DNA of 64,000 nt, taken from the NCBI GenBank assembly GCA_016214695.1, contig JACRNY010000001.1:1116001-1180000 (forward strand), in the 5' to 3' direction. Shown piece after piece: positions 115 to 52,313 of the stretch. The stretch comes from Nitrosomonadales bacterium (lineage in GTDB: Bacteria; Pseudomonadota; Gammaproteobacteria; Burkholderiales; Gallionellaceae). Each line of letters opens with the position of its first letter. Positions within the stretch are counted from its first letter, which is position 1. Made by a program: the position numbers and the translations under genes. Under the pieces are notes generated by a model that searched no databases, had not been told where the DNA came from, and saw only the letters and a list, made by a program, of their open reading frames with translations.

Positions 115-1415
115 CAGTTCGCCGCGCTGCGGTATTCGATGAATGCGCGATCGCGCAACTGACGCAGCCAATCCTGGAAGGCATCGTCAGACTTGAACGA
201 ACGGATGGCGTTGCGGGCACGCTGGCGCTTCTGATCCACGCTGACATCGGTGTTGCGTCGTTCCAGCACCTGGATCAGGTGCCAACCGAACCCTGATTGC
301 ACCAGACCGCTCACCTGGCCGACTTTCAGTGCATCCATCCCGCCTTCGAATTCCGGCACCGTTTCACCGGGCGACAACCAGCCCAGATCGCCGCCTTGCG
401 ACGCACTGCCGTCCTCGGAATGGAGCTTGGCCTGTTCGGCAAAATCCGCACCCTTGTCGATACGCTGCTTGATCTCCTGCAAACGGGCCTTCGCCTCATT
501 CTCGGGGACCAGTTCGCTGGTCTTGATCAGAATGTGGCGCGCATGCGTCTGGGTGATGACGACAGGCGCGTCCTTGCTGCGGCGATCCAGCAGCTTGATG
601 ATATGGAAACCGTTCGGACTGCGCAGCACCGGGCTCACCTCGCCCGGTTTCATCTTCTGCAGCGCTTCGGCGAACAGCGGCGGCAGGCGGTCTGCCGGAC
701 GCCAGCCGATCTCACCGCCCTTGAGCGCATCCTGGGCATCGGAAAAGCCCGCCGCCACCTGGGCGAACGGCGCTCCGCCGCGCAACTTGGCCAGCGCCTG
801 GTCGGCACGATTGCGATAGGTCTGGATCTTGTCTGCGCTGGCCTGCTCCGGGACGACCACGAGGATGTGCGCCAGCTCCAGTTCCTCGCCCTTGCCTTCC
901 TGGCGCTCCTGGTTGCTCAGATAATTGTCGACGTCGTTCTCGCTGATGACCAGCTTGCTGTCGACCTCGCGCTCGCGCAGGCGCACAGAAATCATTTCAT
1001 TGCGCACTTCTTCGCGGAATTCCCTGAAATCGGTTCCGTCCTGCTCCAGCTTGCTGCGGAAGGCCGCCACCGACGGGAATTTGTTCTGTTGTGAGATGCG
1101 CAGGATGGTCTTGTCCAGTTGCGCATCCTCGATACGCAAGCCGCTCTCCCTGGCGAACTGCGCCTGCAACATTTCTATGATCATGCGTTCCAGCACCTGG
1201 CGCTCCAGAATGTTCCGGTCCGGCAAGGCGGTCTTCTGCTTCTGCAGCATCCTCGTGACACTGACCATGCGCTTGTCAAGCTCGCGACGGGTGATGACAT
1301 CATCGTTCACCACCACTTCGACGCGATCGACGGTAACGCGCTGCCTCTGCGGTTCTGCCGCGGAGGCAGCGATGGCAAAGGTGGCCAACAGGACGACGAG
1401 GATTTTTCTCAGCAT
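114..1415 (-). CDS. surA: Periplasmic chaperone / peptidyl-prolyl isomerase SurA
   Basis: A 433-residue protein, the usual SurA size. It opens with a Sec signal peptide (hydrophobic stretch about 4-18, cleavage after SAAA near residue 20), then the SurA N-domain (about 25-170) and two parvulin rotamase domains (about 178-280 and 288-388), each with the family signatures HIL, GGxxGW and GFHII/GWHLI. SurA escorts unfolded outer-membrane proteins, including LptD, across the periplasm to BamA. It lies 23 bases downstream of lptD and overlaps pdxA by one base, so it is probably transcribed with both. No key segment is missing. Confidence 0.97.
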   Translation of the reverse strand: MLRKILVVLLATFAIAASAAEPQRQRVTVDRVEVVVNDDVITRRELDKRMVSVTRMLQKQKTALPDRNILERQVLERMIIEMLQAQFARESGLRIEDAQLDKTILRISQQNKFPSVAAFRSKLEQDGTDFREFREEVRNEMISVRLREREVDSKLVISENDVDNYLSNQERQEGKGEELELAHILVVVPEQASADKIQTYRNRADQALAKLRGGAPFAQVAAGFSDAQDALKGGEIGWRPADRLPPLFAEALQKMKPGEVSPVLRSPNGFHIIKLLDRRSKDAPVVITQTHARHILIKTSELVPENEAKARLQEIKQRIDKGADFAEQAKLHSEDGSASQGGDLGWLSPGETVPEFEGGMDALKVGQVSGLVQSGFGWHLIQVLERRNTDVSVDQKRQRARNAIRSFKSDDAFQDWLRQLRDRAFIEYRSAAN

Positions 1416-33349: not shown

Positions 33350-35073
33350 GTTTTACCCTACACGGTCTTCCAGTCTCCAGCGGCATCGCCATCGGCCATG
33401 CCCACCTGGTCTCCAACACCTCGCTTGAGGTATCGCACTATGTGCTGCCCAAGCATCTGGTGCACGAGGAGGTCGAGCGCCTGGACAACGCGCTGGAGAC
33501 CACGCGCAAGGAATTGAGCGCATTGCGCCAGCAACGCCCGCAACAGGCCGCTGCCGAGTTCGACGCCTTCCTCGACCTGCACCTGATGATCCTCGGCGAC
33601 GAACATATCAGCAAGGCGGCACGCGAGATGGTGGCGGCCGAGCATTGCAACGCCGAGTGGGCGCTGAAGACCCAGATGGACGAACTGGTGGCCCAGTTCG
33701 AGGCGTTCGAAGATGCCTACCTGCGCGAACGCAAGACCGATGTGATGCAAGTGGTCGAGCGCGTGCTGAAGACGCTCAACGGCCAGTCCGGCCACACGCC
33801 GCCCGCTGCCAAGCATGATGTGGAGATGATCCTGGTCGCGCACGATGTGAGCCCCGCCGACCTGATCCAGCTCAAGCCGCACCAGTTCTCCGCCATCCTC
33901 ACCGACCTGGGCGGCGCGACCTCGCACACCGCCATCGTGGCGCGCGGCCTCAACACGCCTTGCGTGGTCGGTCTGCATCACGCGCGTGAACTCATCAAAG
34001 ACCACGACATGCTCATCGTCGACGGCGAGCAGGGCGTGGTCATCGTCGACCCGGACAAGCACCTGCTGGCCGAGTACAAGCTGCGCAAGAGCCAGTGGGA
34101 ACTGGAGCGCCAGAAGCTCAAGCGCCTGAAGACCGCGCACGCCGACACGCTGGACGGCACGCATATCGAACTGCACGCCAACATCGAGATGCCGCACGAC
34201 CTGCCGGATGTGAAAGAGAACGGCGCTACCGGCATCGGCCTGTTCCGCAGCGAGTTCCTGTTCCTCAACCGCGATGTGTTGCCGGACGAGGAAGAGCAGT
34301 TCAACGCCTACCGCGAGGTGATCGAGGGTATGGACGGCCTGCCGGTCACCATCCGCACCTACGACCTGGGCGCGGACAAGCAACTCAAAGGAGTGACCCG
34401 CGTCGCCAGCAACCCGGCGCTGGGCCTGCGCGCCATCCGCCTGTGCCTGGCCGAACCGCAGCTGTTCCGCACGCAGTTGCGCGCGCTGCTGCGCGCCTCG
34501 GCTTACGGCAACCTGAAGATCCTCGTGCCCATGCTCTCCGGTGCCGCGGAGATCAATCAGACGCTGCAATTCATCGAGGGAGCGAAACAGAGCCTCGCCA
34601 ACCAGGGCATCGCCTACAACCCCAATGTGCCGATCGGCGGCATGATCGAGATCCCCGCGGCGGCCCTGGCACTGAACTCGTTCATCAAGAAACTGGACTT
34701 CCTCTCCATCGGCACCAACGACCTGATCCAGTACACACTTGCGATCGACCGTACCGACGAGGAGGTCGCGCATCTGTACGATCCCCTGCATCCCGCCGTG
34801 TTGCAGCTGCTGGCACTGGTCATCGGCAGCGCCAACAAGGCCGGCGTACCGGTCTCGGTGTGCGGCGAGATGGCCGGTGAACTGGCCTACACCCGCCTGC
34901 TGCTCGGCCTCGGCCTGCGCCAGTTCTCCATGCACCCGGCGCAACTGCTCGGCACCAAGCAGCGCGTGCTCACCACCAGCCTGCCGGAGATCACTCCGCT
35001 GGTGCAAAAGATCATGCGTGCCGACGACCCGATGAAGATACGCGACCTGCTAGACAAGCTGAATACCGCTTAG
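33346..35073 (+). CDS. ptsI: Phosphoenolpyruvate-protein phosphotransferase (Enzyme I)
   Basis: 575 residues from a GTG at 33346, which overlaps the ptsH stop by four bases and follows GGAGAAGG. The reading frame is open further upstream, but that part is the shadow of ptsH. The phosphorylated His is in GGATSHTAIVARG (about residue 192). The PEP-binding C-terminal half has GIGLFRSEFLFL, LDFLSIGTNDLIQYTLAIDR and the Cys of VCGEMAG. It starts the phosphate relay PEP-EI-HPr-EIIA. Confidence 0.96.
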   Translation: MSFTLHGLPVSSGIAIGHAHLVSNTSLEVSHYVLPKHLVHEEVERLDNALETTRKELSALRQQRPQQAAAEFDAFLDLHLMILGDEHISKAAREMVAAEHCNAEWALKTQMDELVAQFEAFEDAYLRERKTDVMQVVERVLKTLNGQSGHTPPAAKHDVEMILVAHDVSPADLIQLKPHQFSAILTDLGGATSHTAIVARGLNTPCVVGLHHARELIKDHDMLIVDGEQGVVIVDPDKHLLAEYKLRKSQWELERQKLKRLKTAHADTLDGTHIELHANIEMPHDLPDVKENGATGIGLFRSEFLFLNRDVLPDEEEQFNAYREVIEGMDGLPVTIRTYDLGADKQLKGVTRVASNPALGLRAIRLCLAEPQLFRTQLRALLRASAYGNLKILVPMLSGAAEINQTLQFIEGAKQSLANQGIAYNPNVPIGGMIEIPAAALALNSFIKKLDFLSIGTNDLIQYTLAIDRTDEEVAHLYDPLHPAVLQLLALVIGSANKAGVPVSVCGEMAGELAYTRLLLGLGLRQFSMHPAQLLGTKQRVLTTSLPEITPLVQKIMRADDPMKIRDLLDKLNTA

Positions 35074-35127
35074 GCCGCCTGTAGGGCCTGTGGTTGACAG
35101 GTTTCTGCAAAACACGGACACTTCGTC

Positions 35128-35185
35128 TCGTGCCGATTTGAGTTCAGCTTGCGGGGCACGTAAAACATACCAGCTAAAGCGAGGA
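35128..35185 (+). ncRNA. SAM-II/SAM-V-like riboswitch aptamer upstream of metX
   Basis: P1 is CGTGCC (35129-35134) paired with GGCACG (35155-35160). Directly inside it is the conserved GATTT (35135-35139). After P1 comes an A-rich joiner and then GCTAAA (35173-35178), the hallmark 3' motif of the SAM-II/SAM-V fold. The loop segment CTTGC (35148-35152) can pair with GCGAG (35179-35183, one G-U) to give the required H-type pseudoknot. The location ahead of metX fits. A TTGACA at 35094-35099 could be the promoter -35; the -10 is weak. Confidence 0.78.
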
Positions 35186-35186
35186 G

Positions 35187-35223
35187 ACCCGCTCTAGCCC
35201 CAAGCTGTGCGGGTTTTTCTTTT
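35187..35223 (+). terminator. Intrinsic terminator between SAM aptamer and metX
   Basis: ACCCGC (35187-35192) pairs with GCGGGT (35209-35214), with an inner AGC/GCT pair, followed by TTTTTCTTTT. It begins two to four bases after the aptamer pseudoknot and ends just before the metX Shine-Dalgarno, so it could be the expression platform. AGCG/CGCT (35178-35181 with 35190-35193) would compete with both structures. Confidence 0.75.
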
Positions 35224-35232
35224 GGAGCTTCT

Positions 35233-36363
35233 TTGAGCAATTCGGTTGGAATCGTTACGGCGCAACGCGCCCACTTCGACACACCGCTGCAATTCAACAG
35301 CAGCGCGGTGCTGCCGCAATACGACCTGGTGTATGAGACTTACGGCACACTGAATGCCGACCGCTCCAACGCCATACTGATCTGCCACGCCCTGTCGGGC
35401 CACCACCATGTCGCGGGCAGCTATGCCGAAGACCCGAAAAACATCGGCTGGTGGGACAACATGATCGGCCCCGGCAAGCCCATCGACACCGACAAGTTCT
35501 TCGTCATCGGCCTCAACAACCTCGGCGGCTGCCACGGCTCCACCGGCCCGTCGAGCATGGATCCCGCCACCGGCAAGCCTTACGGTTCCAGCTTCCCCAT
35601 CGTCACCGTGGAAGACTGGGTGCACGCGCAGGCACGCCTGGCCGACCGCCTCGGCATCCAGCAGTTCGCCGCGGTGATCGGCGGCAGTCTCGGCGGCATG
35701 CAGGCGATGCAATGGTCGCTGACCTATCCCGAGCGCGTGCGCCATGTGCTGGCCATCGCCACCGCGCCCTGCCTGACCACCGAGAACATCGCCTTCAACG
35801 ACGTGGCACGCAACGCCATCCTGACCGACCCGGATTTCCACGGCGGCGACTTCTACCAGTACAAGGTGGTGCCGACGCGCGGCCTGCGTCTGGCGCGCAT
35901 GCTGGGGCACATCACCTATCTTTCCGACGACGCGATGGCGGGCAAGTTCGGCCGCGGCCTGCGTTCGGGGGAATACAAGTACGGCTACGACATCGAGTTC
36001 GAGGTCGAGTCCTACCTGCGTTACCAGGGCGACAAGTTCGCCGCCTATTTTGACGCCAACACCTATCTGCTGATGACCAAGGCGCTGGACTACTTCGACC
36101 CGGCGCGTCACAGCGAGCACAATCTGGCGCGCGCCTTTGCGCCGATCAAGGCCAGCTATCTGGTGGTGTCGTTCTCCAGCGACTGGCGCTTCTCGCCCGA
36201 CCGCTCGCGCGAGATCGTGAAAGCGCTGCTGCACAACCGCCGCAACGTGAGCTACGCCGAGATCCAGTCGCGCCACGGCCATGACTCTTTCCTGATGCAG
36301 GACGAGCAATACTTCGCGGTGATGCGCAACTATCTGAACAACGTGGCGAAGGAGGCAGCATGA
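35233..36363 (+). CDS. metX: Homoserine O-acyltransferase MetX
   Basis: 376 residues starting at a TTG (35233) five bases after GGAG. Alpha/beta-hydrolase fold with nucleophile Ser in GGSLGGMQ (about 154), Asp in SSDWRFSP and His in RHGHDSF. It activates homoserine for sulfhydrylation. MetX enzymes of betaproteobacteria can use acetyl- or succinyl-CoA, and I cannot decide from sequence by eye. It overlaps metW by ATGA. It is probably repressed by SAM through the upstream riboswitch. Confidence 0.95.
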
Positions 36364-36962
36364 ACATCTCCATCGTCCAGGCCCGCCCCGATTTCGCCGC
36401 CATCGCGGCGTGGATACCGCAGGGCGCTTCCGTGCTCGACCTCGGCTGCGGCGACGGCGCGCTGCTCGACTATCTGAAGAACACGCGCCAGGTACGCGGC
36501 TACGGCGTCGAGATCAGCGACCTGAACATCCTGCACTGCATCGAGCGCGGTGTGAACGTCATCCAGGGCAATCTGGATGAAGGCCTCTCCGGCTTCGAAA
36601 GCAACTCCTTCGACTTCGTGATCCTGTCGCAGACTCTGCAAGCCACGCGCCACACCGAGGCGCTGATGAAAGAGATCCTGCGCGTTGGCCGCGAGGGCAT
36701 CGTCAGCTTCCCCAACTTCGGCTACTGGAAGAACCGCATGCAGGTACTGCTCGGCAACATGCCCATCTCGCGCGAACTGCCCTACCAGTGGTACGACACG
36801 CCCAACGTGCACCTGTGCACGCTGGACGACTTCGAGAACCTCTGCGACACGCATGAGGTGCGCATCCTTGCCCGGCATGTGATCACGGGCGGCAAGGATG
36901 TCGAGGTGATGCCCAACCTGCGCGGCAGCGTGGCGGTGTACCGGTTCAAGCGTGCGGAATGA
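36360..36962 (+). CDS. metW: MetW, methyltransferase-like partner of MetX
   Basis: 200 residues. The SAM-binding motif [15 protein letters not shown] is at about 25-39, with family blocks [20 protein letters not shown] and [11 protein letters not shown]. MetW occurs next to metX throughout betaproteobacteria and is thought to support MetX activity. The 4-base overlap with metX implies coupled translation. The downstream repeat cluster (36966-37066) ends the unit. Confidence 0.93.
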
Positions 36963-51410: not shown

Positions 51411-52313
51411 ATGTTACCTATTTCATTGCGCCAGTTGCAGGTGTTCGAAAGCGTTGCCCGTCACCTGAACCATTCGCGGGCAGCCTCGGAACTTTACCTG
51501 TCGCAACCTGCCGTGTCGATGCAAATCAAGCAGGCCGAAACTGCCATCGGCTTGCCCCTTTTTGAGCAAACCGGCAAGAAACTCCACCTCACGGCGGCAG
51601 GCAGCGAACTATTGCACTATGCGCGCTCGATGCTGCAACTGATGCAGGAGATGGAATCGGTGTTCGACGAGATGAAGGGTTTGGAGCGCGGCCACCTGAA
51701 CATCTCCGTGGTCAGTACTGCCAACTACTTCATGCCGCAGTTGCTGGCCAAGTTCATCCAGGCGCATCCCAAGATCCAGGTGAGCCTGTCAGTCGCCAAC
51801 CGCGACGCAGTCATCCGGCACCTTGTCGAGAACATCGCCGATCTCGCCATCATGGGCCAGCCTCCTGAGGGCACCGACATGCGTGCCGAGGCATTCATGG
51901 AGAATCCGCTGGTGGTGATCGCAGCCCCAGGCCACCCGCTGGCGCGGACCAAAAAAATCCTGCCAAAGCAATTGGCGAACGAGACGTTCCTGTTGCGCGA
52001 GCTCGGCTCGGGTACGCGCGGCGTAGCAGAACGTTACTTTGCCAGCAACAAACTGGTGCTACCTGCGCACATGGAGATGGACACCAACGAGGCCATCAAA
52101 CAGTCGGTGCAGGCGGGCATGGGTATCGGCATCATCTCGCGTCACGGTATCGAACTGGAGCTGGAGACCAGGCGACTGGTCGTTCTCGACGTGGATCGCT
52201 TCCCTATCGTGCGCCATTGGTACATCGTTCAGCGCAAGGACAAACGTCCCACCACTGCAGCGCATGAGTTCGAACGCTTCCTGCTGGAAGAATCACAAGG
52301 TGTGGCACGGTAA
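51411..52313 (+). CDS. cbbR: LysR-type regulator CbbR
   Basis: 300 residues from the ATG at 51411 (MLPISLRQLQVFESVARHL); a longer frame upstream would consist of operator DNA. Winged HTH at about 1-62 (SRAASELYLSQPAVSMQIKQ), then the LysR effector domain. CbbR activates cbb operons in response to metabolites such as RuBP or PEP. No Shine-Dalgarno precedes the ATG, and a -10 lies just upstream, so a leaderless mRNA is likely. Divergent from cbbM. Confidence 0.93.
   Translation: MLPISLRQLQVFESVARHLNHSRAASELYLSQPAVSMQIKQAETAIGLPLFEQTGKKLHLTAAGSELLHYARSMLQLMQEMESVFDEMKGLERGHLNISVVSTANYFMPQLLAKFIQAHPKIQVSLSVANRDAVIRHLVENIADLAIMGQPPEGTDMRAEAFMENPLVVIAAPGHPLARTKKILPKQLANETFLLRELGSGTRGVAERYFASNKLVLPAHMEMDTNEAIKQSVQAGMGIGIISRHGIELELETRRLVVLDVDRFPIVRHWYIVQRKDKRPTTAAHEFERFLLEESQGVAR

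Follow-up and report, generated by a model that had tools for sequence, protein, structure and literature searches.

The SAM-II riboswitches (SAM_alpha, RF00521), as described by Corbino 2005 (PMC1273637), combine a P1 helix, a GAUUU loop, and CUUGC and GCUAAA segments with a P2 pseudoknot, and they precede methionine genes, where intrinsic terminators are frequent. SAM-II elements with terminators have been on record in beta-proteobacteria since 2007; in the account of Barrick and Breaker 2007, the mechanisms of these RNAs were at that time not yet experimentally established. For the metZ SAM-II of the alpha-proteobacterium S. meliloti, which likewise has a predicted terminator, the terminated RNA was reported to be more abundant at high SAM (PMC9373788). 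Two further descriptions concern regulatory RNAs of methionine genes. Leyn 2014 (PMC4239095), in whose account SAM_alpha was found solely in Rhizobiales and Rhodobacterales, presented as novel a metXZ element of 35 beta-proteobacteria, 30 of which carry it ahead of metXW and five ahead of metZ. It has a pseudoknot formed by regions 1-4 and 2-6 and a terminator downstream; it was already suspected there that regions 3 and 4 pair with the terminator stem as an antiterminator. Khoo 2012 (PMC3521395) placed the candidate Bp2_Cand287_SIPHT ahead of methionine genes and suggested that it acts in cis, and the Rfam family RF02424 carries the name of this Bp2_287 candidate.

The locus studied here lies in a 64 kb stretch (G000:C2:1116001-1180000, hereafter the window) within a 2.66 Mb genome. 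On its forward strand metX (35233..36363; NF047916, 673.6 bits against a cut-off of 560) is followed by metW (36360..36962; TIGR02081, 266.7 bits against 189.5), and an open reading frame matching PTS enzyme I (PEP-protein phosphotransferase) ends at 35073, upstream of metX. The TTG start of metX, proposed in an earlier note on this DNA, is confirmed by the open reading frame and its phase and, as judged by eye, is common to many, but not all, relatives; a Shine-Dalgarno-like GGAG can be read at 35224..35227 (+). The top NCBIfam rank of the window MetX is the homoserine O-succinyltransferase type, which suits a MetZ partner. Among the best 80 of 582 matches in a metX similarity search, the closest relatives are records titled Sideroxyarcus, Gallionellaceae, Sideroxydans and Gallionella, together with some of vaguer title, and metX identity is 77-94% in 56 of these 80 kept loci. 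A possible promoter at 35094..35122 (+), consisting of TTGACA (35094-35099), 17 nt and a weak -10 GACACT (35117-35122), is suggested by the sequence; a consensus promoter scan gave nothing above threshold for a leader promoter, and a GGACACT-like stretch was found again by eye in many leaders of the family.

The metX leader is very probably a SAM-sensing RNA, a SAM-II riboswitch with predicted SAM binding, joined to a transcription stop signal. Across the 64 kb window, cmscan brought just one Rfam family, RF00521, to its gathering threshold; the match at 35120..35194 (+) spans model positions 1-79 of 79 and scores 36.6 bits against a gathering score of 36. In a narrow search of 34900-35400 it was the best of six matches (E 1e-6), the second being RF02424 (Bp2_287) on the minus strand, whose 22.5 bits fall below its cut-off of 70. 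The margin of just 0.6 bit counts against the RF00521 assignment, and because this score is marginal we trained a covariance model, R1, on 43 elements that come from the order but from families other than the window's own. R1 gives the window element 62.4 bits (E 8.7e-16), and its runner-up in the window, at 51946-51974 with 12.8 bits (E 0.062), is taken as a chance match. The suggestion in the earlier note of a SAM-II-type aptamer before metX, to be checked with Infernal, is thus borne out by both models, by RF00521 above its gathering score. The SAM-V identity that it had offered alongside is rejected: SAM-V (RF01826) is similar to SAM-II in fold and ligand contacts (PMC9481103), but the Rfam covariance model has no match in the 64 kb window or in 34900-35400. 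Parts of the conserved core can be read directly in the window as GATTTGA (35135-35141), AGCTTGC (35146-35152) and GCTAAAG (35173-35179). The element is of a kind already known and is not new as such; the order differs from RF00521 in its consensus AGCUUGC...GCUAAAGCG and its short P2a, and many of its members fall under the Rfam cut-off.

For comparative analysis an anchored pattern in which CTTGC and GCTAAA are required was used to gather 188 elements from loci found by RF00521, by RF02424 or by metX similarity; the constancy of these two segments in the set proves nothing, because the pattern fixes both. Among loci or regions found via RF00521, the anchored core is present in 32/32 from the family and 97/109 from the order, the other 12 order loci lying outside the element set. 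P1 is formed by CGTGCC (35129..35134, +) and GGCACG (35155..35160, +), and L1, the conserved SAM-II loop GATTTGA (35135..35141, +), is placed by the covariance-model match and the alignment. In 72 distinct sequences P1 pairs 1 to 5 are standard without exception, and pairs 2, 4 and 5 change on both sides; at pair 6 a standard pair is seen in 53 of the 72, with CG, AT, TA and GC all occurring. Hence the relatives carry compensatory changes in P1, at pairs 2, 4, 5 and 6, as the earlier note had anticipated for a genuine helix. Keeping an element required at least four P1 pairs, which removed 1 of 214 pattern matches. The chosen register leaves 1012 of the 1032 cells paired, and sliding P1 lowers this to 351, 259 and 590, a comparison biased in favour of that register since it was the best of four offsets. 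P1 is 98.4% paired in 43 aligned elements. On alignment A1, 96.5% of cells are paired in the named structure, whose covariation score of 0.136 compares with 0.014-0.065 when slid; further pair types on A1 were not above shuffles (99/500 as high).

P2 would join a 5' strand UCAGCUUGC (strand a, 35144..35152, +) to a 3' strand GCUAAAGCGA (strand b, 35173..35182, +), in the P2b register of the SAM-II crystal structure. Among the 43 elements C35145-G35181 is kept in 42, and the adjoining U35144-A35182 is represented by UA in 18, AU in 7, UG in 3, CG and GU in 1 each, and no pair in 13; for this adjoining pair the mutual information is 0.29, against 0.05 when shuffled. All 43 have the same inner P2, UUGC with GC(U)AA, but the pattern selected for it. 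These elements weakly suggest the SAM-II P2 pseudoknot. A different pseudoknot put forward in the earlier note, CTTGC with GCGAG, is rejected on its conservation pattern: GCGAG is found in just 50 of 155 distinct relatives, CTTGC itself being required by the pattern, and the base facing the first U of CTTGC in that pairing is A in 85, T in 39, G in 21 and C in 10 (n=155). The covarying pair beside the conserved C-G favours the SAM-II P2 pairing as the better fit to the sequences. The full leader fold is no more stable than its shuffles (z -0.42), and whole-leader energy is thus uninformative.

An intrinsic terminator at 35186..35219 (+), comprised of a hairpin at 35186-35215 with dG -15.0 and a following TTTTTC, is joined to the aptamer ahead of metX, as had been proposed. 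Its call in the window rests on the fold, because a simple terminator scan (loops 3-8) reported two minus-strand sites and left this hairpin out. Its 5' arm is CGCUCUAGC (strand c, 35190..35198, +), and its loop and inner 3' arm together read CAAGCUG (strand d, 35201..35207, +). A hairpin followed by at least 4 T within 150 bases of GCTAAAG is present in 184/188 elements, and with a stricter energy limit 181/188 elements have a hairpin, where three dinucleotide shuffles give 20, 14 and 22. The analyses below use 172 elements, unique by strand a and terminator, from the 184 with a terminator; two of the metX rows counted resemble coding sequence more than terminators.

The position of this terminator bears on whether control is mainly translational, with P2 masking the purine-rich GAGGAG beside the aptamer, an explanation that we regard as improbable. 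GAGGAG (35181-35186) does look like a ribosome site, masking is used by some SAM-II RNAs (PMC9373788, PMC10907184), and one S. meliloti SAM-II has been reported to affect translation remotely, across a terminator (PMC9373788). However, the metX start at 35233 has its own GGAG at 35224, and the terminator stands between GAGGAG and this start. The earlier note had envisaged transcriptional as well as translational control; the transcriptional part fits the arrangement, whereas direct aptamer masking of the metX ribosome site is without support, because that site (35224-35227) lies beyond the terminator and is no part of the aptamer.

The strands of P2 and of the terminator are also complementary to each other: CAGCUUG (35145-35151) in strand a can pair with strand d, and GCUAAAGCG (35173-35181) in strand b can pair with strand c, to which it is 8/9 complementary, as also appears in folds of partial transcripts. 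We consider it likely that metX-metW is controlled by a SAM-II riboswitch with a terminator and an exchange of partners among these strands. Plentiful SAM would turn metX-metW off through a terminating expression platform: SAM would stabilise P1 and the P2 pseudoknot joining strand a to strand b, the terminator arms c and d would then pair together, and transcription would end before metX. When SAM is lacking, the freed strands would swap partners, b pairing with c and a being able to pair with d, and the resulting antiterminator would permit read-through. Because P1 encloses strand a in its loop, a-d would need an open P1 or a second pseudoknot; since a-d encloses b-c, both helices could coexist if P1 opens. 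Probing of another SAM-II is reported to have found P1 formed without SAM, and for this reason b-c with P1 retained may be the main antiterminator.

The complementarity could also have arisen without any exchange, as a by-product of terminator composition (for instance of GCAA loops), with SAM acting through the position of P2 or through kinetics, and we see this as possible but considerably less likely. Perfect a-d runs of at least 7 occur in 69/172 elements (40.1%) and perfect b-c runs of at least 6 in 42/172 (24.4%), against 1.5% and 1.0%, respectively, in 159 unrelated terminators, taken both from the window and from the 80 metX loci, each paired with five random elements and having weaker hairpins (mean -13.6 vs -17.1). 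A GCAA loop is indeed present in 26/172 terminators, but when the GCAA types are left out a-d runs of at least 7 remain in 37/139 elements. Shuffles that preserve the structure also fall short of the observed complementarity: over the 172 elements the mean longest perfect run is 5.98 for a-d, against 3.76 (sd 0.06), and 4.51 for b-c, against 3.41 (sd 0.06), the significance being overstated by the relatedness of the elements to each other. In the window a mismatch interrupts b-c, whose longest perfect run is 4.

Folding of the window leader, by a procedure that cannot contain the P2 pseudoknot, gave alternatives of similar energy. Cut before the outer 3' arm, the transcript adopts a nested a-d/b-c fold both intact (-23.0 kcal/mol) and without the P1 5' strand (-20.9 kcal/mol); with P1 forced, the same cut transcript forms P1 and b-c at -22.6, 0.4 kcal/mol from the nested form. 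With the whole 3' arm present, the favoured fold of the leader is the terminator (-26.2 unconstrained, -26.0 when P1 is forced), and if the P1 5' strand is absent the nested form still wins with a complete terminator (-24.3). Four other elements folded to the terminator end without the P1 5' strand gave the terminator in two cases and the a-d form in two.

When the 172 elements were folded as partial transcripts lacking the P1 5' strand, a-d appeared in 120 of them, b-c in 88 and the two together in 67, against shuffle means of 50.55, 6.35 and 2.75 (maximum for both 6, 20 shuffles) and terminator-swap means of 126.6, 53.95 and 43.25 (maximum for both 51, 20 swaps). The reading without exchange gains from the 105/172 elements whose partial fold lacks both antiterminator helices together (a-d being missing in 52) and from the survival of a-d under terminator swaps, where the native count is no better than the swapped mean; against it, the b-c and both-helix counts exceed those of swapped terminators. 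Swapped pairs were as good as native ones in a-d energy in 0/1000 trials within metZ, 52 within metX and 63 within the rest, and in b-c energy in 0 within metX, 0 within the rest and 239 within metZ; native a-d is thus ahead of swapped pairs in metZ and weakly ahead elsewhere, and native b-c is ahead everywhere but in metZ. From the swap counts, a-d is a trait common to these terminators and not matched element by element, and b-c and the combination are better natively. The base before GCUAAA and the base after UUAGC in the terminator showed no clear Watson-Crick pattern. In other classes of the phylum, where 25 of 30 loci could be read by the pattern and 22 of these had a terminator, b-c runs of at least 6 were found in 0/22 and a-d runs of at least 7 in 4/22. 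Taken together, we infer that these numbers back an antiterminator in the partner-exchange model and add b-c as a partner in it.

The window genome holds a second copy at C2:228336-228413 (-), with 34.4 bits for RF00521, below the cut-off, and 75.4 for R1; it stands before a metZ reading frame and has its own terminator. At E 0.001 or better RF00521 was found in 112/158 genomes of the family, 51/158 being over the cut-off; the many-genome searches use stricter filters and undercount, the family search showing one of the two copies in the window's own genome. In the best 80 of 582 metX loci a simple pattern found the motif within 260 bases before the metX start in 54, and R1 gave 56 matches at E 0.01, two of them partial. 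For the order, RF00521 was found in 117/250 genomes (47 over the cut-off) and R1 in 189/250, the same 250 genomes from which its 43 elements were drawn; for the phylum, RF00521 was found in 58/299 genomes, 49 over the cut-off. The 188 elements precede metX in 87 cases, metZ in 63 and other or unassigned genes in 38, with 39 of the metX- and metZ-preceding elements coming from loci picked by metX similarity.

These targets, the beta-proteobacterial hosts, the pseudoknot and the terminator are common to the window element and the metXZ element of Leyn 2014 (PMC4239095), from which the window genome differs in having two copies. In a Nitrosospira genome metZ is preceded by a SAM-II match of 31.8 bits, which is under the cut-off; the same paper gives this arrangement for N. 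multiformis (PMC4239095). Architecture, genes and clade, compared through the published description of the metXZ element, make it likely that this element is SAM-II. In the listed titles and abstract starts of open-licence literature we found no statement that metXZ or Bp2_287 is SAM-II.

The Bp2_287 family (RF02424) occupies the same kind of loci, upstream of methionine genes, with its model on the opposite strand. It has 52 matches in the 250 order genomes, of which at least 29 overlap one of the 79 listed RF00521 places against which they were counted, 29/29 on the opposite strand; four more (G202, G310, G188, G399) lie opposite R1 matches. GATTTGA is found on the opposite strand near the middle of 26/30 fetched RF02424 loci (L113, L114-L142). 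The sole match above the cut-off of 70, L113 1501-1703 with 107.5 bits, has on its opposite strand the GATTTGA-AGCTTGC-GCTAAAG core with metZ downstream; RF00521 has no match there at E 0.05, which an extra hairpin-like insert, seen by eye between P1 and GCTAAAG, may explain. From the opposite-strand overlaps and the core and metZ of L113, RF02424 is most likely the complement of the SAM-II/metXZ riboswitch, modelled on the wrong strand. That the conserved feature is instead an antisense sRNA of the Bp2_287 kind appears very improbable. The minus-strand RF02424 match in the window, under the cut-off as it is, and the detection of the Burkholderia candidate by RT-PCR (PMC3521395) speak for such an sRNA, although the 2012 RT-PCR does not appear to settle the strand (PMC3521395). 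Against it, the U-run terminator faces the met gene, the element is ahead of metX or metZ in 150/188 cases, some at loci picked by metX similarity, and the strongest RF02424 match has metZ downstream on the opposite strand.

Inspection of the gathered loci uncovered several other arrangements, with genes and inserts named by eye. SAM-II and a terminator precede a MetH-like reading frame at eleven loci (L120, L127, L137, L142, L167, L179, L191, L210, L214, L220, L231), a target outside the metX and metZ given in Leyn 2014 (PMC4239095), and a MetK-like frame starting MNEYLFTSESVSEGHPDKV at three (L122, L128, L130). At L115 and L129 the spacing from AGCTTGC to GCTAAAG is 13 and 12 bases, respectively, and an ABC-transporter-like frame, perhaps metN, comes next. 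A hairpin-like insert between P1 and GCTAAAG at L067 2365-2456 accompanies an R1 score down to 40.8. Tandem SAM-II is already known from 44 examples (PMC9481103); here SAM-II, a terminator and a second copy with a diverged core were seen at L116, L117, L149, L175, L176, L182, L203, L206, L213, L292 and L295, where some second copies run past the stretch examined, Rfam gives the second copy just in L149 (28.1 bits), and several loci have a small reading frame or a MATE-like transporter frame downstream. L149 also has, at 600-666 (-), a SAM_V match below threshold (33.4 bits vs 41, E 0.065), about 0.7-0.8 kb beyond the second SAM-II copy.

These observations suggest that an apparent orphan can be removed, the "novel" beta-proteobacterial regulator of metX and metZ being most simply SAM-II. 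They also flag a likely strand error in Rfam RF02424, and offer a useful clean-up of naming, with SAM_alpha, metXZ and RF02424 likely representing one family. The chances seem to us evenly balanced for the joint reading, in which the beta-proteobacterial SAM_alpha, metXZ and wrong-strand RF02424 are one family and a four-strand exchange gives ab and cd with SAM, and ad and bc without; it is made less likely by the form with P1 and only b-c being almost as stable. The partner-exchange model offers a specific mutational test and, if it is true, the conserved pocket sequence would itself couple ligand binding to termination.
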